NCBI GenBank assembly: GCA_947471505.1
Contig: CANIWM010000022.1
Span: 1-64,000, forward strand
DNA: 64,000 nucleotides
Direction of reading: 5' to 3'
DNA from: Chthoniobacteraceae bacterium
Lineage (GTDB): Bacteria; Verrucomicrobiota; Verrucomicrobiia; Chthoniobacterales; Chthoniobacteraceae
Within the stretch, counting starts at the first letter, position 1, and every line of letters begins with the position of its first letter. The notes below the pieces were generated by a model. It had not been told where the DNA came from, made no database searches, and was given only the letters and a program-made list of their open reading frames with translations. Both the position numbers and the translations under genes were made by a program. This document shows positions 37,938 to 47,178 of the stretch, piece after piece.

Positions 37938-38113
37938 ATAGCCCAGGCAAAGCGAGGAACGAGCGCAGGCCTGGGTTCCGTTCGAGGTGGGATGCAGCCC
38001 TGAAAGGGCGTGATTATCGCGTGCTACCGGTTTCATCACGCCCTTTCAGGGCTCGCATCTCTCTTCACTCTCGACCCAGGGCTGCGCTCCTACGTCGCTG
38101 ACCCTGGGGCTAC
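37938..38113. repeat. Large imperfect palindrome (REP/MITE-like)
   Basis: The core is a perfect 19-bp inverted repeat (37996-38014 with 38035-38053) around GCCCTGAAAGGGCGTGAT. The next layer (37961-37976 with 38074-38089) matches at 15 of 16 positions, and a looser outer layer reaches 37938 and 38113. No open frame of note lies inside. It occupies most of the 393-bp gap between the S9 peptidase gene and the first island gene. Confidence 0.75.
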
Positions 38114-38189
38114 GTTGGGTATTTGTGCTTGGGTTGTTGAGCGGCACATTCCTCTGCACGAGAGAGTGTTACCGGCCTATCACTACTCG

Positions 38190-38435
38190 ATGCCGTCTAT
38201 CCACTCGAAGGGTGAACCGAAGACGCTTGTGGAGGCTGTTCGGGCGAAGCGGATTGGAATGAAGATGACGCTTCGGCAGTTTGGGAAGATTGTCGGGCGG
38301 CACTTCTGTGCGGTTTCGGAATGGGAACGCGGGGTGAATCGCCCGAATGCGGAGAGTCGGCAGAAGCTGGTTGATTGGCTGGGATATGACCCGGAGATGG
38401 ATCAAGAACGACGAAAGCGGGAGCCTCGGTTTTGA
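38190..38435 (+). CDS. XRE-family helix-turn-helix protein
   Basis: The 81-residue protein carries one HTH of the Cro/C1 type (about 12-66: LVEAVRAKRIGMKMTLRQFG to AVSEWERGVNRPNAESRQKL). The tail is basic. It should be a DNA-binding regulator. Its TGA stop lies inside the loop of the terminator at 38414-38447. It is the first gene of the plasmid-like island and is convergent with the coiled-coil protein gene. Confidence 0.75.
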   Translation: MPSIHSKGEPKTLVEAVRAKRIGMKMTLRQFGKIVGRHFCAVSEWERGVNRPNAESRQKLVDWLGYDPEMDQERRKREPRF

Positions 38436-38475: not shown

Positions 38476-39240
38476 CTACGAGGTGGCTTCGACTTGGGAG
38501 TGGATTTCGGCTTCATGTGTCGTTTCCGTATCGTTCGGGACTGCTCGGAAATGTTCGGTAGGTTTCGGAAGTTCGCGGTGTGATTGGACGGGTGTGCCGA
38601 GTTGGAGAACTTGCGATTCGAGTTCGCCGATTCGTCGGCTGTCGGAAATGAGGCGTTCGATGTATGCGCGACGTTCCTCGTCTTTCCGAATGAGTTCGTC
38701 GTTGAGTCGGGTGAGCAGTTGTTCTTTCACTCGGTTGGTGATTTCCAAGTCCATTACCTTTCGACGGAGGTCGCGGGTTTCTTCGTCGTCTGGTTCGGAA
38801 GGGCGATGGCTTTTTTCGGAAGCGGCGTTTCCGACGGGTTCGGATTGTTTCGGCAATTCGGGATCAGGTTGCGGAGCGGGTGCAGGGCGTTTTGCTATCT
38901 CCTCTCCGATTGCCAGTGTCACGCTTTGTGGGGTGATGAAGTAGCGGCCTTCGTTTTCATCGAAGAAGGCGTCGAGTCGGGCGACTCCCTGCCGGTTGAG
39001 TTGGCACCAGTTGATGATGCTTCGTTCGGTTCGCGGTGCGCCACCCTTTTCAAAGAGTCGGGCGACTTCTTGCACGGTGAGCGTGTGATTTTGCGTTCGT
39101 TCGGACATCTTCCGAACGGTGCGGAAAGGTTCCGAAGCTTTCGGAATGGTTCTGAACGTTGCCGAATCTTGCGGAAGATTTCCGAAAGGTGCGGAAGGCT
39201 GCGGAACGTTTCCGAAGTCTTCCGAAGTGGGTTGATCCAT
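38476..39240 (-). CDS. DNA-binding coiled-coil protein with decapeptide repeats
   Basis: This 254-residue protein has three parts. Residues 1-46 are four tandem decapeptides of the form SxxFxx(V/L/I)(P/R)xx (SAPFGNLPQD, SATFRTIPKA, SEPFRTVRKM). Residues 50-115 form a MerR-like winged-helix domain (LTVQEVARLFEKGGAPRTER, then FDENEGRYFITPQSV). Residues 150-215 are a charged coiled coil, and the end returns to the repeat (TEHFRAVPND). The HTH-plus-coiled-coil layout resembles plasmid KfrA-like proteins, and I recall similar uncharacterised plasmid proteins. The underlying DNA is a 10-bp phased repeat. Function unknown; plasmid maintenance is inferred. Confidence 0.7.
   Translation of the reverse strand: MDQPTSEDFGNVPQPSAPFGNLPQDSATFRTIPKASEPFRTVRKMSERTQNHTLTVQEVARLFEKGGAPRTERSIINWCQLNRQGVARLDAFFDENEGRYFITPQSVTLAIGEEIAKRPAPAPQPDPELPKQSEPVGNAASEKSHRPSEPDDEETRDLRRKVMDLEITNRVKEQLLTRLNDELIRKDEERRAYIERLISDSRRIGELESQVLQLGTPVQSHRELPKPTEHFRAVPNDTETTHEAEIHSQVEATS
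38521..38570. repeat. 10-bp phased repeat array, 3' end of the coiled-coil gene
   Basis: Five consecutive decamers follow NNNTTC(C/G)GNA with one substitution (CTCGGAA in unit 3), exactly in register, with a degenerate sixth to 38580. The core TTCSGNA is the same as in the larger array at 39101-39230, in the same orientation. A shorter run with three 10-bp-spaced copies lies at 38829-38855. Confidence 0.8.
39101..39230. repeat. 13-unit 10-bp phased repeat array, 5' end of the coiled-coil gene
   Basis: Thirteen consecutive decamers follow (T/G)C(C/G)GAANNNT without a single spacing error. GAA is kept at positions 4-6 in twelve of thirteen, and T at position 10 in twelve of thirteen. Three decamers make ten codons, which is why the protein shows a decapeptide repeat. 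Two further CGGAA copies, 10 bp apart, lie upstream of the gene at 39266-39280 and again at 39349-39363. Confidence 0.92.
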
Positions 39241-39315
39241 GTGGTTTCAATGAGTTGATAAATCGCGGAATGGTTCGGAAAGAACTGGCTGAGGCTTCCG
39301 CGTTGCACATTTGAA

Positions 39316-39321: not shown

Positions 39322-39464
39322 GCATGTCCGTGTCGAAAACGCTCGATGCGGAACGCTTCGGAAATGGTGGAAAACTCGATGTCTGCGACGCATCGAAAAA
39401 TGTGCGCCCTTTTCGGTAGTTGGAAGCCTTGCGGCGGGGCAGCGAGTCTGCTAAGATTTATTGC

Positions 39465-39746
39465 ATGACAACACTCACAGTCACAATCCGAGATGAAGAC
39501 CAGCACTTCATCGAATCTGCGATGAAAAGCGGACGCTACGTTTCTGAAAGCGAAGCGGTGGCCGATGCGTTTGCGGAACTCCGCAGCCGAGAGGCGATGC
39601 GTCAGGCGCGTCTTGCTGAACTCCGCTCTCAGGTGCAGGCGGGGATCGATGAAATCGAACGTGGTGAAGGCGAAGTATGGGACATGGAGAAAACCAAAGC
39701 TGAAGCCAGGGCATTATTCGCAGCACGTAAGTCAACCGCTGCGTAA
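39465..39746 (+). CDS. ParD-type antitoxin
   Basis: The 93-residue protein starts MTTLTVTIRDEDQHFIESAM, a ribbon-helix-helix DNA-binding segment followed by SGRYVSESEAVADAFAEL, as in ParD/CopG antitoxins. The C-terminal half is acidic and helical (IDEIERGEGEVWDM) for toxin binding. It lies 2 nt before the ParE-like toxin gene. Expression is probably autorepressed. Such modules stabilise plasmids, which fits the island setting. Confidence 0.82.
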   Translation: MTTLTVTIRDEDQHFIESAMKSGRYVSESEAVADAFAELRSREAMRQARLAELRSQVQAGIDEIERGEGEVWDMEKTKAEARALFAARKSTAA

Positions 39747-39748
39747 AG

Positions 39749-40045
39749 ATGCCGAACATCATTCGTTCTCCGCTGGCAAACGCGGACATCATTGAAATCT
39801 GGAACTACATTGCCGAGGATAATCCGGCAGCCGCAGACCGACTACTCGCAAAGTTCGACGACACTTTTCGACGAATTTTACACCAACCCGGAATCGGAAG
39901 AACGACCGACGAACTTGGCTCGGGCCTGCGGATGTTTCCGATAGGCTCCTACCTGATCTTTTACCGTGAACACGGAGCCGACGTGACGGTATTTCGCATA
40001 TTGCACGGCGCTCGCGACATCACGGCGGACTTTTTTACGGAGTAA
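39749..40045 (+). CDS. ParE/RelE-fold toxin
   Basis: The 98-residue protein shows the RelE/ParE pattern: SPLANADIIEIWNYIAEDNPAAADRL at the N-terminus and GSYLIFYREHGADVTVFRILHGARDI at the C-terminus. That pattern is typical of ParE, which inhibits DNA gyrase. The length and antitoxin-first order are standard. No truncation is visible, so the pair may be active. Confidence 0.85.
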   Translation: MPNIIRSPLANADIIEIWNYIAEDNPAAADRLLAKFDDTFRRILHQPGIGRTTDELGSGLRMFPIGSYLIFYREHGADVTVFRILHGARDITADFFTE

Positions 40046-40106: not shown

Positions 40107-40463
40107 ATGGAAGAAAAACCGCGCTACGAGCGCGACTTCAAAGGCGTTTGGATTCCCCGTGAGATTTGGCTCTCGGAGGAACTTTCGTTGATGGAAAAAG
40201 TTCTGTTCGTTGAAATTCACAGCCTCGACAACGAGCGTGGTTGTTTTGCATCGAATCGCCATTTTTCTGAGTTCTTCGGCGTGAGTGAGCGGCAGATTGC
40301 GACTTACATCGCGTCTTTGAAAAAGAAGGGGTTTATCGAATCGACGGTCGTGAATGGCTTCGAGCGCACGATCCGGGTGACTGGAAAATACGCGTATCCC
40401 AATTCAACGGAGCGCAAGAAGCTGCGGATGAATATGGATCGCCTTGCCGATGGAATGCGCTAG
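40107..40463 (+). CDS. HTH replication-type protein (plasmid/phage Rep or O-like N-terminal domain)
   Basis: The 118-residue protein is a winged-helix domain of the HTH_36 kind (GVWIPREIWLSEELSLMEKVLFVEIHSLD, FASNRHFSEFFGVSERQIATYI, LKKKGFIESTVVNGFERTIRV). This domain forms the N-terminus of many plasmid and phage replication initiators. The protein ends early compared with such initiators. Just after its stop lie 23-bp-spaced repeats and a DnaA box, so it is a good candidate for the island's Rep protein. It may have lost a C-terminal part. Confidence 0.7.
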   Translation: MEEKPRYERDFKGVWIPREIWLSEELSLMEKVLFVEIHSLDNERGCFASNRHFSEFFGVSERQIATYIASLKKKGFIESTVVNGFERTIRVTGKYAYPNSTERKKLRMNMDRLADGMR

Positions 40464-40939: not shown

Positions 40940-41887
40940 ATGGGCCACAAACCGGCTCGCACAGATCCTTATCAACTCGTCACAGACACAATCATTGCTC
41001 ACCTCGAACGCGGAGTCGTTCCGTGGCGCTGCCCTTGGAATCGCTCCACCGGCAGACCGCGAAACTTCTCCACCGGACGCGAGTATCAGGGCGTCAACGT
41101 CCTGCTGCTCGGCATCCAACGATTCGCTTCACCGTGGTGGCTCACGTTCCGACAGGCGCAAGAACGCGGAGGCTGCGTTCGCAAAGGCGAGCGCGGTTCC
41201 ACCGTTATGAAATGGGGACGCCACAATCGCACCGTGAAAAACGGCGACGGCACCGAGGATGAAAAGAAAACTTTCTTCCTCAAAACCTACTGCGTTTTCA
41301 ACGCCTGCCAAATCGACGGCATCCTTTTTCCGGCGACGGAAGAAGGATCGCAGGTCGATTCAAAAGAGCGCATCGCACGGGCAGAAATATTTGCCCGCGA
41401 AATGCCGCAGCCGCCGACCATCGTCGAAGGCCGCAGCACGCAAGCGAGTTACCGAGTTCGCGCAGATACCGTGCAGATGCCTGCACTGGAGCGGTTTGAG
41501 CGGGCAGAGGATTATTACCTCACGCTCTTTCACGAGCTGACTCACGCGACCGGACACGCCTCGCGGCTCAATCGCAAAAGCGTAATCGAAAGCGACGGAT
41601 TCGGCGGCGAAGTTTATTCGCAAGAGGAACTCGTTGCTGAAATCGGCGCGGCATTTCTCGGCACCGAAGCGGACATCATCCGCGACGAGCACGAGCAATC
41701 TGCTTCGTATCTTCGCGGCTGGCTCGACGCTCTAAAAGAGCCCGATGCGCGACGCTGGATTGTCCAAGCGGCAACACAGGCCGGACGGGCTGCGGATTAC
41801 ATCCTTGGCCGTTCGCGCACATCACCCGAGGTGACATCCGACGACCGTCCGCAGTCCATCGTCGCGGAAGCGTTCTGTGGTGAATGA
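40940..41887 (+). CDS. ardC: ArdC-like antirestriction protein (ssDNA-binding domain plus zincin)
   Basis: The 315-residue protein has the ArdC N-terminal domain (about 8-130: DPYQLVTDTIIAHLERGVVP, PWRCPWN, GREYQGVNVLLL, CVRKGERGSTV and FNACQIDG) and a C-terminal polyvalent metallopeptidase domain with the zinc motif HELTHATGH and a downstream EELVAEIGAAFL helix. ArdC proteins enter recipients with conjugating DNA and protect it from restriction. All key residues appear intact. An AAAGG Shine-Dalgarno-like site precedes the ATG. Confidence 0.88.
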   Translation: MGHKPARTDPYQLVTDTIIAHLERGVVPWRCPWNRSTGRPRNFSTGREYQGVNVLLLGIQRFASPWWLTFRQAQERGGCVRKGERGSTVMKWGRHNRTVKNGDGTEDEKKTFFLKTYCVFNACQIDGILFPATEEGSQVDSKERIARAEIFAREMPQPPTIVEGRSTQASYRVRADTVQMPALERFERAEDYYLTLFHELTHATGHASRLNRKSVIESDGFGGEVYSQEELVAEIGAAFLGTEADIIRDEHEQSASYLRGWLDALKEPDARRWIVQAATQAGRAADYILGRSRTSPEVTSDDRPQSIVAEAFCGE

Positions 41888-44115: not shown

Positions 44116-45030
44116 ATGACAGCCCTTCGACACCCTCGCTTTCAGCGGGCGGAAAATTTCCCGCCGATGGAACTCACTCCGCGTGACGCGGAGATTCTTC
44201 GGCTTGTGCAGCGGCATCGCTTTTTGCGTTCGCATCAACTCGCCGCGCTGATTGGCGGGAGTCGTCAGCAACTCCTTCGTCGCTTGCAGTCGCTCTATCA
44301 TCACGGATTCGTGGAGCGACCATTGTCGCAAATCGAATACTACCAGCGCGGAGGCTCGCAGAGCATGGTCTATGGACTCGCAAATCGCGGAGCCGCGCAC
44401 CTCGCGCGTGCCGATGGACACAGCATTCCCCGTCTCGATTGGAACGCCCGCAATCGCCACACCACTCGCCTCTTTCTCGAACATGCGCTGATGATTTCCG
44501 AAATCATCGTCGCGCTCGAAATCGCCGCACGCAGCATTCCCGGCGTTCGCATTTTGCATCACGACGAATCGTCGAAATGGAAAATCCCGATGCGCGGAAG
44601 TGCGCCCGTCACCGTCATCCCCGATGCCCTCTTTTTCATCGAGCACACACGCTCCGACGGCACCGCCGACACCATCCTCTTCGCACTGGAGTCCGACCGT
44701 GGCACCATGCCCGTGCAAAGCGCCAACCGTTCGCGCAGCTCCATCGCCCGCAAGCTCACCGCCTATGAAGCGAGCTGGCGTGCAAACATCTTCCGCCAGC
44801 TATTCGACGCGACTCGCGTGCAAATCCTCAACATCACCACCAGCGCCGCGAGGCTTGCATCCATTACCGAGCACGCACGCTCGCACGTCAGCGCCGCCGG
44901 GCTTTTTCACTTCGCCACACTCGCGCAACTCACCGCTTCACCCACGCAGTTTCTCGCCGCGCTCGTGGACAACAAAACGCCCGCTACCGCGCAAAGCATG
45001 TTCGAGTTCACCCCGCTGCCCGCCACGTAA
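44116..45030 (+). CDS. Replication-relaxation family protein
   Basis: The 304-residue protein begins with a winged-helix domain (about 18-100: ELTPRDAEILRLVQRHRFLR, HQLAALIGGSRQQLLRRLQSL, GFVERP, MVYGLANRGAAHLA). A nuclease-like core follows (about 110-260) with IPDALFFIEH and FALESDRGTMPVQ, resembling the PD-(D/E)xK-like pattern of the replication-relaxation family. This family is thought to act in plasmid replication or transfer initiation, but its chemistry is not settled. It lies after the repeat-rich gap and before the VirD4/HerA-like ATPase gene, the position of a relaxase. Confidence 0.72.
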   Translation: MTALRHPRFQRAENFPPMELTPRDAEILRLVQRHRFLRSHQLAALIGGSRQQLLRRLQSLYHHGFVERPLSQIEYYQRGGSQSMVYGLANRGAAHLARADGHSIPRLDWNARNRHTTRLFLEHALMISEIIVALEIAARSIPGVRILHHDESSKWKIPMRGSAPVTVIPDALFFIEHTRSDGTADTILFALESDRGTMPVQSANRSRSSIARKLTAYEASWRANIFRQLFDATRVQILNITTSAARLASITEHARSHVSAAGLFHFATLAQLTASPTQFLAALVDNKTPATAQSMFEFTPLPAT

Positions 45031-45197
45031 TTTTCAGGCATCGCAGCCAGTCTCCATTACCTCATCCGCTCGCCCTCGTGCGTTGTTGCGGGTGGAAGCA
45101 ATTCGCTTCGGATAAAACCTCACGCCAAGCTGATAAGACACGGCAGCGCGGCGCGGTGTTCCCTCCGAATGCAGGAGTGGCGGCTGGCTCCGGCACC

Positions 45198-46577
45198 ATG
45201 AACAACGAAAACTTCACACACATCGGCACACGCGAGATTTGGGGCGCACAACACCCCGTGGTTCTTTCGCTGCCCGACCGCCGCCAACACCTCTACGTGA
45301 TCGGCAAAACGGGCTCGGGAAAAACAACCCTGCTCCGCAATCTCATCATCCAACACCTCGCCGCCGGACACGGCATCGGCCTCATTGACCCACACGGCGA
45401 CCTCGCCGAAGAACTCCTCGATTGCATACCGCCGCACCGCGCCGACGACCTCGTATATTTCAATCCCGGCGACCTCGAATTCCCCATCGCCATGAACCCA
45501 CTCGCCATGAACCCACTCGCCATGAACCCACTCGCCATGAACCCACTCGCCAACGTCCCGCCCGACGAACGTCATCTCGTCGCAAGCGGCATCGTAGCTT
45601 CGTTTAAGAGCATCTGGCGCGACTCCTGGGGGCCAAGACTCGAATACATTTTATACAACGCCATCGCCGCCCTGCTCGATTGCCCAAACACTTCCCTGCT
45701 CGGCGTCAACCGAATGCTCACCGACGCCAAGTATCGCCGCCGAATCGTCGCCAAAGTGCGCGACCCATTCATCCGCGCATTCTGGCTCGAAGAATACGAA
45801 AATTACGACCCTCGTTTCCAACGTGAAGCCATCGCCCCGATTCAGAACAAGCTCGGCCAATTCATCCAAAACCCCGTCGTCCGCAACATCCTCGGTCAAG
45901 TGCGAAACAAAGTGAGCATCCCCTTCATGATGGACACCGGACGCATCTTCATCGCAAACCTCAGCAAAGGCCGTATCGGAGCCGACAAATCCAGCCTTCT
46001 CGGAAGCCTGCTCACCACCCAATTTCAACTCGCCGCAATGTCCCGAGTGAACCAGACCGAACAATCCCGCCGCGACTTTTTCCTCTTCATAGACGAGTTC
46101 CAAAACTTCACCACCGATTCATTCGCAAGCATCCTCTCCGAAGCCCGCAAATACCGGCTATGCCTCACGCTCTCCCACCAATACATCGAACAACTCCCCG
46201 ACCCAATCCGCGCCGCAATCTTCGGCAACGTCGGCTCACTCATTTCATTCCGAGTCGGCAACACCGACGCCCAAGCACTCACCCGTGAATTCGGCACCGC
46301 TTTCGTTCCAGAAACATTCACGGGCCTCGACCGCTTCCGCATCATCGCCCGCCTCAACGAAGACGGCCAAACCCGCGAACCCTTCCAAGCCGCCACACTC
46401 GCCCCGATAGATTTCACGATCAGTCGCCGCGAAAAACTCATCGCTCGCTCCCGCGAAAAATACGCTGCACCCCGAGCAATCGTGGAAGCAAAAGTAGAGC
46501 GATGGATGCGCTCCCCGATTGATGTCGGAAAGAAAAAACCCGGAGGCAGCATCCCATTCTTGGCAGTTCGAGTATAG
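45198..46577 (+). CDS. VirD4/TraG/HerA-like coupling ATPase without membrane anchor
   Basis: The 459-residue ATPase has Walker A VIGKTGSGKTT (about 34-44), GLIDPHGDLAEELL, Walker B FLFIDEFQNF (about 295) and the C-terminal LSHQYIEQLPDPIRAAIFGN and VGSLISFRVGNTDA regions of T4 coupling proteins. There is no N-terminal membrane helix, so it is either cytosolic or recruited by a partner. It contains a fourfold MNPLA repeat. The start MNNENFTHIG at 45198 is chosen because the upstream 40 codons lack family sense. With the previous gene it forms a minimal DNA-processing pair. Confidence 0.82.
   Translation: MNNENFTHIGTREIWGAQHPVVLSLPDRRQHLYVIGKTGSGKTTLLRNLIIQHLAAGHGIGLIDPHGDLAEELLDCIPPHRADDLVYFNPGDLEFPIAMNPLAMNPLAMNPLAMNPLANVPPDERHLVASGIVASFKSIWRDSWGPRLEYILYNAIAALLDCPNTSLLGVNRMLTDAKYRRRIVAKVRDPFIRAFWLEEYENYDPRFQREAIAPIQNKLGQFIQNPVVRNILGQVRNKVSIPFMMDTGRIFIANLSKGRIGADKSSLLGSLLTTQFQLAAMSRVNQTEQSRRDFFLFIDEFQNFTTDSFASILSEARKYRLCLTLSHQYIEQLPDPIRAAIFGNVGSLISFRVGNTDAQALTREFGTAFVPETFTGLDRFRIIARLNEDGQTREPFQAATLAPIDFTISRREKLIARSREKYAAPRAIVEAKVERWMRSPIDVGKKKPGGSIPFLAVRV
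45492..45551 (+). repeat. Four exact 15-bp tandem repeats inside the ATPase gene
   Basis: ATGAACCCACTCGCC occurs four times without change, encoding MNPLA four times. The family normally has one such unit (PIAMNPLANVPPDERH). The exact identity points to recent slippage, in frame. Confidence 0.92.
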
Positions 46578-46581
46578 AAAC

Positions 46582-46844
46582 GCAGATGGCCAGTATTCCC
46601 CCCGTCCGCTCATCGAGAGCATCGTCGAAGTCACCAAGCCCGCGTCTCGCGAAATCATTCACGATCCCGCGTGCGGCACGCTCGGCTTCCTAATCATGGC
46701 CGACTGCTCTATCAAGGAGAAGAACGACGACCTCTTTGAACTCTCGGAGAAGGAGCAGGAGTTCCAGAAGCATCACGCTTTCGTGGGCATGGAGCTTGTG
46801 CCCGACACCCACCGTCTTGCGCTGATGAATGCGCTTCTCCATGA
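46582..46844 (+). pseudogene. Fragment of a type I restriction methylase (hsdM)
   Basis: About 86 codons read GQYSPRPLIESIVEV, HDPACGTLGFLIMAD, LFELSEKEQEFQKHHAF and VGMELVPDTHRLALMNALLHD, clear HsdM sequence around the SAM-binding motif. The N-terminal specificity part and the NPPF catalytic region are missing. Two signature sites are damaged: GQYFTPRPL is shortened to GQYSPRPL, and CGTGGF has become CGTLGF. The fragment ends abruptly at a foreign junction at 46844/46845. It is a relic, not a working gene. Confidence 0.85.
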
Positions 46845-46915
46845 TTCAACAGTCTGCGCATCACGGAAATCATGTACAATCCATCCGGCGGGCTCACAGA
46901 ATCGGACTTCGTCGT
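46845..46915 (+). pseudogene. Fragment of an LTD-domain gene, exact 46-nt copy
   Basis: Bases 46845-46890 are identical to 57896-57941 in the LTD/CotH gene. Translated in that frame they give NSLRITEIMYNPSG, the start of a lamin-tail domain, continuing as GLTESDFVV before it diverges. No complete gene remains here. The following stretch to 47178 shows no supported gene. Confidence 0.85.
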
Positions 46916-47178
46916 GCGACTCAGCAGCCGTTCTGCGTGGCGGTCATTCTTCCGCGAAAACGCCAAACGCGCTGACGGCGCATCTGACCGCCGATGATGC
47001 GTTTTTCCAAATCGCGGACAAGAAAAGGCTGTGCCGACGCAGCCACCCCTGACCACGTCGGCACTTACCTCGGTGCAGGCCCTCGTGTCCCCCACCAAGA
47101 GGACACGCGACTTCTGCACGCCGTTCCAGAATGAGCGCTACCCGTCAAAGCGCAACTCACCCCAAATTGAAAAACCCC

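Follow-up and report, generated by a model that had tools for sequence, protein, structure and literature searches.

A strictly phased row of short repeats inside a protein-coding gene raises two questions, namely whether selection acts on the DNA or on the encoded peptide, and what such a row would do for the genome that carries it. We addressed both in a 64,000-nucleotide stretch of DNA from a Chthoniobacteraceae bacterium (Verrucomicrobiota; GenBank assembly GCA_947471505.1, contig CANIWM010000022.1, positions 1 to 64,000 of the forward strand; hereafter the window), in which the array lies in an open reading frame on the minus strand (38476-39240) that encodes a protein of 254 amino acids (hereafter the array gene and the array protein).

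Layout of the array

Read on the gene strand, the repeat unit is TTC(C/G)G(A/C)A (TTCSGMA) followed by N3, i.e. a heptamer every 10 bp. The main array (39100-39226, minus strand; codons 5-47 of the 254) holds 12 consecutive units that fit TTCNGNA (39110-39226, one of the cores being TTCAGAA) and a degenerate thirteenth with one mismatch (GTCCGAA, 39100-39106), and with these small corrections the 13 consecutive phased decamers free of spacing errors that had been reported in the preliminary description are confirmed. The view that all cores face the same side of the DNA holds roughly, but with a pitch of 10.0 bp and DNA of 10.5 bp per turn the register shifts by about 17 degrees per unit, and across 13 units the rotation adds up to slightly more than half a turn. 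Likewise, the array said to close the gene is real (38524-38570, plus strand; recovered by the genome scan and by the site scan), but it is a weaker match, composed of five units that fit with at most one change, at a 10-bp pitch and in the opposite orientation, in the part that codes for the C-terminal tail. Beyond what had been described, the site scan recovered a mid-gene cluster of five sites in the linker-coding part (38794-38855, minus strand; spacings of 10, 10, 14 and 21 bp) and three sites in the promoter region (39274-39280, 39347-39353 and 39357-39363).

Four phased units were matched nine times in the window and not once in 100 shuffles of it. Within the 6.07-Mb genome, allowing up to two mismatches, the four-unit pattern was found at the main array and the 3' end of the array gene only.

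Homologues and distribution

Twelve homologous genes keep the array, the 11 homologues being 41-69% identical to the window protein. They come from an order-level sample of 213 genomes (five carriers and one fragment) and from a class-level sample (seven more array-bearing genes from six genomes, together with a few partial matches); a phylum-wide sample of 388 genomes returned the window's own match and one weak partial match. Six of the order's 213 genomes contain the exact four-unit array, and the array gene is present in five of them, a coincidence that argues for the array protein as the binder of its own array; the sixth occurrence is an unrelated perfect simple repeat. The G025 copy (L006) keeps six units and has its ATG out of frame with the conserved domain (L006 2080-2180, minus strand), as would follow if the number of units lost were no multiple of three; an assembly error is the alternative.

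No relatives of the array protein were found in the annotated plasmid and phage collections or in the viral contigs. Three viral contigs with a bare array (L080, L082 and L083) were set aside as they look like simple repeats, and so were most of the contigs L085-L099, whose common feature is an operator-like block of four units belonging to a phage group and not the array gene. This common block (TTCCGAA-N3-TTCCGAA-N3-TTCGGAA-N3-TTCGGAA, at a 10-bp pitch and operator-like in appearance) recurs in the phage contigs L086-L099 (e.g. L086 5167-5203). Two further arrays of TTCGGAA/TTCCGAA at a 10-bp pitch lie within phage genes, one in a replisome-organiser gene, after the initiator domain (L084 3-458, minus strand), and the other in an unnamed gene (L081 5779-6630).

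Conservation at the level of double-stranded DNA

As 10 cannot be divided evenly by 3, each unit is read in another frame than the one before it, and the DNA and peptide causes of conservation can be separated. In 131 units from the 12 genes, unit positions 3, 5 and 7 were each kept in 130, whatever their codon position, and the spacer positions were near random (0.1-0.3 bits); because the motif served to delimit this set, the exact percentages are biased upward. A set of 58 units from five genes, chosen by position alone as contiguous stretches, had C at position 3 and G at position 5 in every unit (58/58), whether these fell on the first, second or third codon base. The pitch was equally rigid: neighbouring strict sites followed each other at 10 bp in 99 of 109 cases, at 20 bp in eight, and at 30 bp and 32 bp in one case each. 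Random synonymous recoding with each gene's own codon usage never reached the array, neither in 5000 trials on five genes nor in 2000 trials for each of the 12. Between the window and its homologue L003, fourfold sites were identical at 11 of 14 positions in the array, as opposed to 13 of 26 in the winged helix and 3 of 12 in the long helix, and for the encoded peptide the order of array and winged helix was reversed (19/42 identical residues in the array, 56/69 in the winged helix).

The defects of the imperfect units point in the same direction. The two frequent forms, TTCCGCA and TGCGGAA, are reverse complements of each other, defects of the left and right half-sites nearly exclude one another (both in 2 of 130 units; Fisher p = 4e-4), and the middle base shifts with the side of the defect. 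One-sided defects and reverse-complement forms are properties of a double-stranded DNA site, unlike those of a codon or an RNA strand. We conclude that the array is an array of double-stranded DNA sites, conserved at the DNA level.

The preliminary description had offered, as an alternative to a DNA function, that the repeated decapeptide is selected and the DNA pattern secondary. The array does encode a repeated S[EA]xFxx[VLI]Pxx peptide, but homologues that keep the decapeptide and lose the DNA core, which this alternative predicts, are the reverse of those found: the core bases persist regardless of codon position, the synonymous sites (far more conserved in the array than elsewhere in the gene) are frozen, the defects are strand-symmetric and the array peptide is predicted by AlphaFold2 to be disordered. 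The DNA function is thus strongly supported, and selection on the peptide is hardly credible. An RNA structure in the mRNA leader deserves as little credence. Folding of the array RNA does surpass that of dinucleotide shuffles (z -2.8 to -4.9), but permuted units fold equally well or better in 12 of 12 genes, which makes the strong folding a by-product of near-palindromic units. Moreover, sites occur also upstream of the presumed promoter and hairpins do not need an exact 10-bp pitch.

Predicted fold of the array protein

The AlphaFold2 prediction, run with 12 sequences, agrees with the winged helix and coiled coil proposed earlier, in that it gives a confident, MerR-like winged helix at about residues 51-120 (38881-39090, minus strand) and a high-confidence 64-residue helix at residues 151-214 (38596-38790, minus strand). 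The N-terminus, linker and tail were modelled with low confidence (the tail mostly at pLDDT <50) and are probably disordered; the three site clusters map to these three segments.

In the VIA comparison, used here with caution, the best structural matches were to MerR-like proteins, among them BldC bound to DNA (Z 6.6, 55 residues, rmsd 2.5), RacA bound to DNA (Z 5.6), the pSK1 Par-centromere complex (Z 4.6, 53 residues, rmsd 2.6) and SoxR; such middling values (best 6.6) indicate a fold class, not a function. Among the best-matched proteins are binders of phased direct repeats or of centromeres, and Xis proteins were also among the structural matches. A Foldseek search against the PDB gave no significant match (many of its rows were EF-hand proteins), the protein falls into no Pfam or NCBIfam family, and no initiator domain was matched in it by Pfam, PHROGs or NCBIfam. 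KfrA_N was absent from the Pfam matches of all 12 members, and pSK1 Par (8csh) appeared at E 4.6 in one search and was absent from a second, neither amounting to a significant sequence relationship.

An integrative mobile element

The gene neighbourhood was compared with those of the relatives by domain matches. Adjacent to the 3' end of the array gene lies a small HTH_3-like gene (38010-38435, plus strand) that is kept in near relatives; on the other side, all on the plus strand, follow a ParD/ParE toxin-antitoxin pair (39465-40045), an HTH_36 protein similar to the N-terminal region of replication initiators from phages (40107-40463), an ArdC-type antirestriction protein (40940-41887), a Replic_Relax counterpart (44116-45030, an open reading frame similar by eye to Pfam-matched proteins of L067, L070 and L072) and a TrwB/TraD-like coupling ATPase (45078-46577). 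HTH_36, ArdC, the small HTH gene, the Replic_Relax counterpart and the ATPase are common to the window and its relatives, which additionally carry a primase and, in one of them (L067), an integrase. These shared neighbours mark the locus as an integrative mobile element, either whole or as a remnant.

The ParDE pair separates the array gene from the rest of the element in the near relatives L048, L050 and L051 as well, and was not found in distant relatives. HTH_36 stands beside the array gene in most of the relatives read. In L070, L071 and L072 the array gene is seemingly the last gene before chromosome-like genes. Next to the array gene in the window no integrase or att site was found, and a repeat search for att sites gave nothing convincing.

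Several other features of the region were recorded. A perfect 19-nt inverted repeat, AGCCCTGAAAGGGCGTGAT (37996-38053), lies near the presumed edge of the element, beside the small HTH gene. The TrwB-like gene contains a 15-bp tandem repeat of about 4.7 copies (45482-45556), which encodes MNPLA repeats and may vary in copy number, and a short, probably truncated N6 DNA methylase gene (46519-47052) is situated at the far side of the element. In L003 (2836-4361) a nucleotidyltransferase adjoins a prokaryotic STING domain protein near the HTH_36 gene, probably as a CBASS defence pair.

Sites at the promoter

In the window, one TTCCGAA site (39274-39280) lies downstream of the presumed promoter and a TTCCGAA-N3-TTCCGCA pair, 10 bp apart (39347-39363), upstream of it (all read on the gene strand). 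A sigma-70 scan found no consensus promoter; the upstream TATAAT box was recognised by eye. Within the 200 bp upstream of the 12 genes we counted 19 strong sites (2.45 expected from the local background), distributed over 10 of the 12 loci; L057 and L066 had none. Such a distribution would be expected of autoregulation, and it is the best evidence that the sequences offer for the array protein, rather than another, as reader of the sites: in the loci where ParDE lies between the two genes, the strong sites stay with the promoter of the array gene and not with the HTH_36 gene. The upstream regions also held five DnaA-like boxes (0.47 expected), in 5 of the 12 loci. The window's own upstream region had no such box, and no strongly AT-rich stretch was seen within 250 bp upstream.

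Function of the array

From these patterns we infer the identity of the binder, the formation of a filament and the biological job of the array, whose sites themselves are observed. Our preferred reading, to which we assign a probability of roughly 0.6, is that the array represents cis-acting iterons of a Verrucomicrobiota integrative element, placed inside the gene of their likely binder and with a role in maintenance. The winged helix would bind cooperatively, one heptamer per helical turn, and thereby set protomers in a row on the array; connected through the long helix, these would build up a larger nucleoprotein complex that covers the 5' part of the gene. With sites on both sides of the promoter, the array protein would repress its own gene. 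The complex would most likely serve the maintenance of the element, either through centromere-like partition or as a replication origin in conjunction with the initiator-like HTH_36 neighbour, and the disordered N-terminus, linker and tail would for the most part be an incidental product of the DNA sites. Against this stand the middling structural matches, the fact that MerR-like winged helices do many jobs, the absence of copies from the annotated plasmids searched and the lack of a strong promoter site in L057 and L066.

The preliminary description had offered, as one reading, a protein that polymerises on an array within its own gene, with the array acting as a centromere or silencer. Such polymerisation may take place, and a centromere or silencer is one among several viable readings, an origin-like role being about as well supported. 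For partition speaks the predicted domain order (winged helix, long helix, disordered tail); the loci read showed no recognisable ParA, ParM or TubZ-type motor next to the array gene, so partition could then only proceed in the single-protein manner. For replication speak the HTH_36 neighbour, the DnaA-like boxes of the relatives and a viral gene discussed below. A bolder form of the preferred reading, which we hold at somewhat under even odds, is that the whole maintenance site (centromere or origin) is contained in the gene of its reader and spread over three disordered segments, most of the disordered sequence being a by-product of the sites, and that a filament nucleates on the N-terminal array and bridges to the other clusters and to the promoter, all this in a family of Verrucomicrobiota elements.

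HTH_36 could be the binder instead of the array protein. The sites would then be origin iterons read by this neighbour, with the array gene as a mere host of the sites or as a partner, and we regard this as unlikely, if far from negligible. It would account for the constant company of the two genes in most relatives, for the likeness of HTH_36 to initiator N-termini and for the excess of DnaA-like boxes upstream; a TTCGGAA array of equal 10-bp pitch is present in the linker of a viral replisome-organiser gene, and origins inside initiator genes have been known before (PMC5703833, PMC6316719). It fits poorly with the strong sites that remain at the array gene's promoter where ParDE intervenes, with the window's lack of an upstream DnaA-like box and with G025 and the L068 copy, in or beside which HTH_36 was not found though both have the array.

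That the sites form nothing but an unusually long autoregulatory or silencing operator, with no part in replication or segregation, appears improbable to us. The promoter sites of 10 of the 12 loci would be expected of it, and five 9-bp repeats mediate the self-repression of KfrA of plasmid RA3 (PMC7783346), but most of the sites lie inside the gene, in three clusters, and exceed what repression would need.

We consider it quite improbable that the protein controls excision, i.e. that it is a recombination directionality factor whose winged helix forms filaments on an array near the end of the element. RdfS-type winged helices do form filaments (PMC11963761), and the structural matches to Xis proteins and the terminal position of the array gene in L070, L071 and L072 are in line with it, but the gene has neither an integrase nor an att site next to it in the window. 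Furthermore, recombination directionality factors are usually small and devoid of a long helix.

The locus is a clear natural instance of a single stretch of DNA with two codes, of which the one for DNA sites seems to prevail over the one for protein; the predicted disorder of the encoded segments makes this tolerable. A recurring rule is suggested, by which arrays of binding sites come to lie in disordered parts of the proteins that read them (phage and plasmid initiators, and now a MerR-like family). The locus also provides a concrete candidate maintenance locus for an unstudied group of mobile elements in Verrucomicrobiota, and it makes a 10-bp phase independent of the codon phase a simple criterion for finding more such loci.

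Comparison with known systems

The segregation proteins pSK1 Par, RacA and RocS resemble the array protein in domain order and, more tentatively, in predicted fold. RacA and pSK1 Par consist of a wHTH, a coiled coil and a disordered C-terminal domain (PMC11500499), and counterparts of the long central helix (151-214) and the disordered C-terminus are present in the AlphaFold2 model. The array protein differs from them by its lack of a significant sequence match and by an extra, predictedly disordered N-terminus. None of the three is known to have sites inside its own gene in three clusters.

KfrA of plasmid RA3 is, as the array protein is predicted to be, a helical DNA-binding autoregulator with short direct repeats at its promoter and a link to plasmid maintenance (PMC7783346); its repeats, however, measure 9 bp, are five in number and are located at the promoter, and the array protein has no Pfam match to KfrA_N. 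BldC of Streptomyces, a MerR-like winged helix that binds head-to-tail to a variable number of direct repeats (PMC5859096), is among the best structural matches, a likeness that is one of fold only, as BldC is a 68-residue regulator without a coiled coil, whose sites lie in promoters and contain an AT-rich element.

In the ParR/parC and TubR/tubC systems, too, the centromere-binding protein assembles on rows of direct repeats, which measure 10 bp in a ParR system (review PMC5016525), whereas the folds are different, a motor partner is involved and the repeats lie outside the gene (tubC upstream of the operon, those of parC flanking the promoter).

Precedents for the layout are origins inside genes, which share with the array phased repeats under DNA-level constraint within coding sequence: in pSK41-type RepA_N plasmids the initiator binds repeats in the linker-coding part of its own gene (PMC5703833), and in phage SPP1 oriL likewise lies inside the gene of its initiator, gene 38 (PMC6316719). 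The sites of the array gene outnumber the four Rep boxes of pSK41, are strictly 10-bp phased and extend over the parts coding for N-terminus, linker and tail, and, in contrast to both systems, the array protein belongs to no known initiator family, an initiator match being confined to the neighbouring HTH_36. Origins inside genes are therefore not new in themselves; what looks new here is the protein family and the unusually regular layout over three segments.
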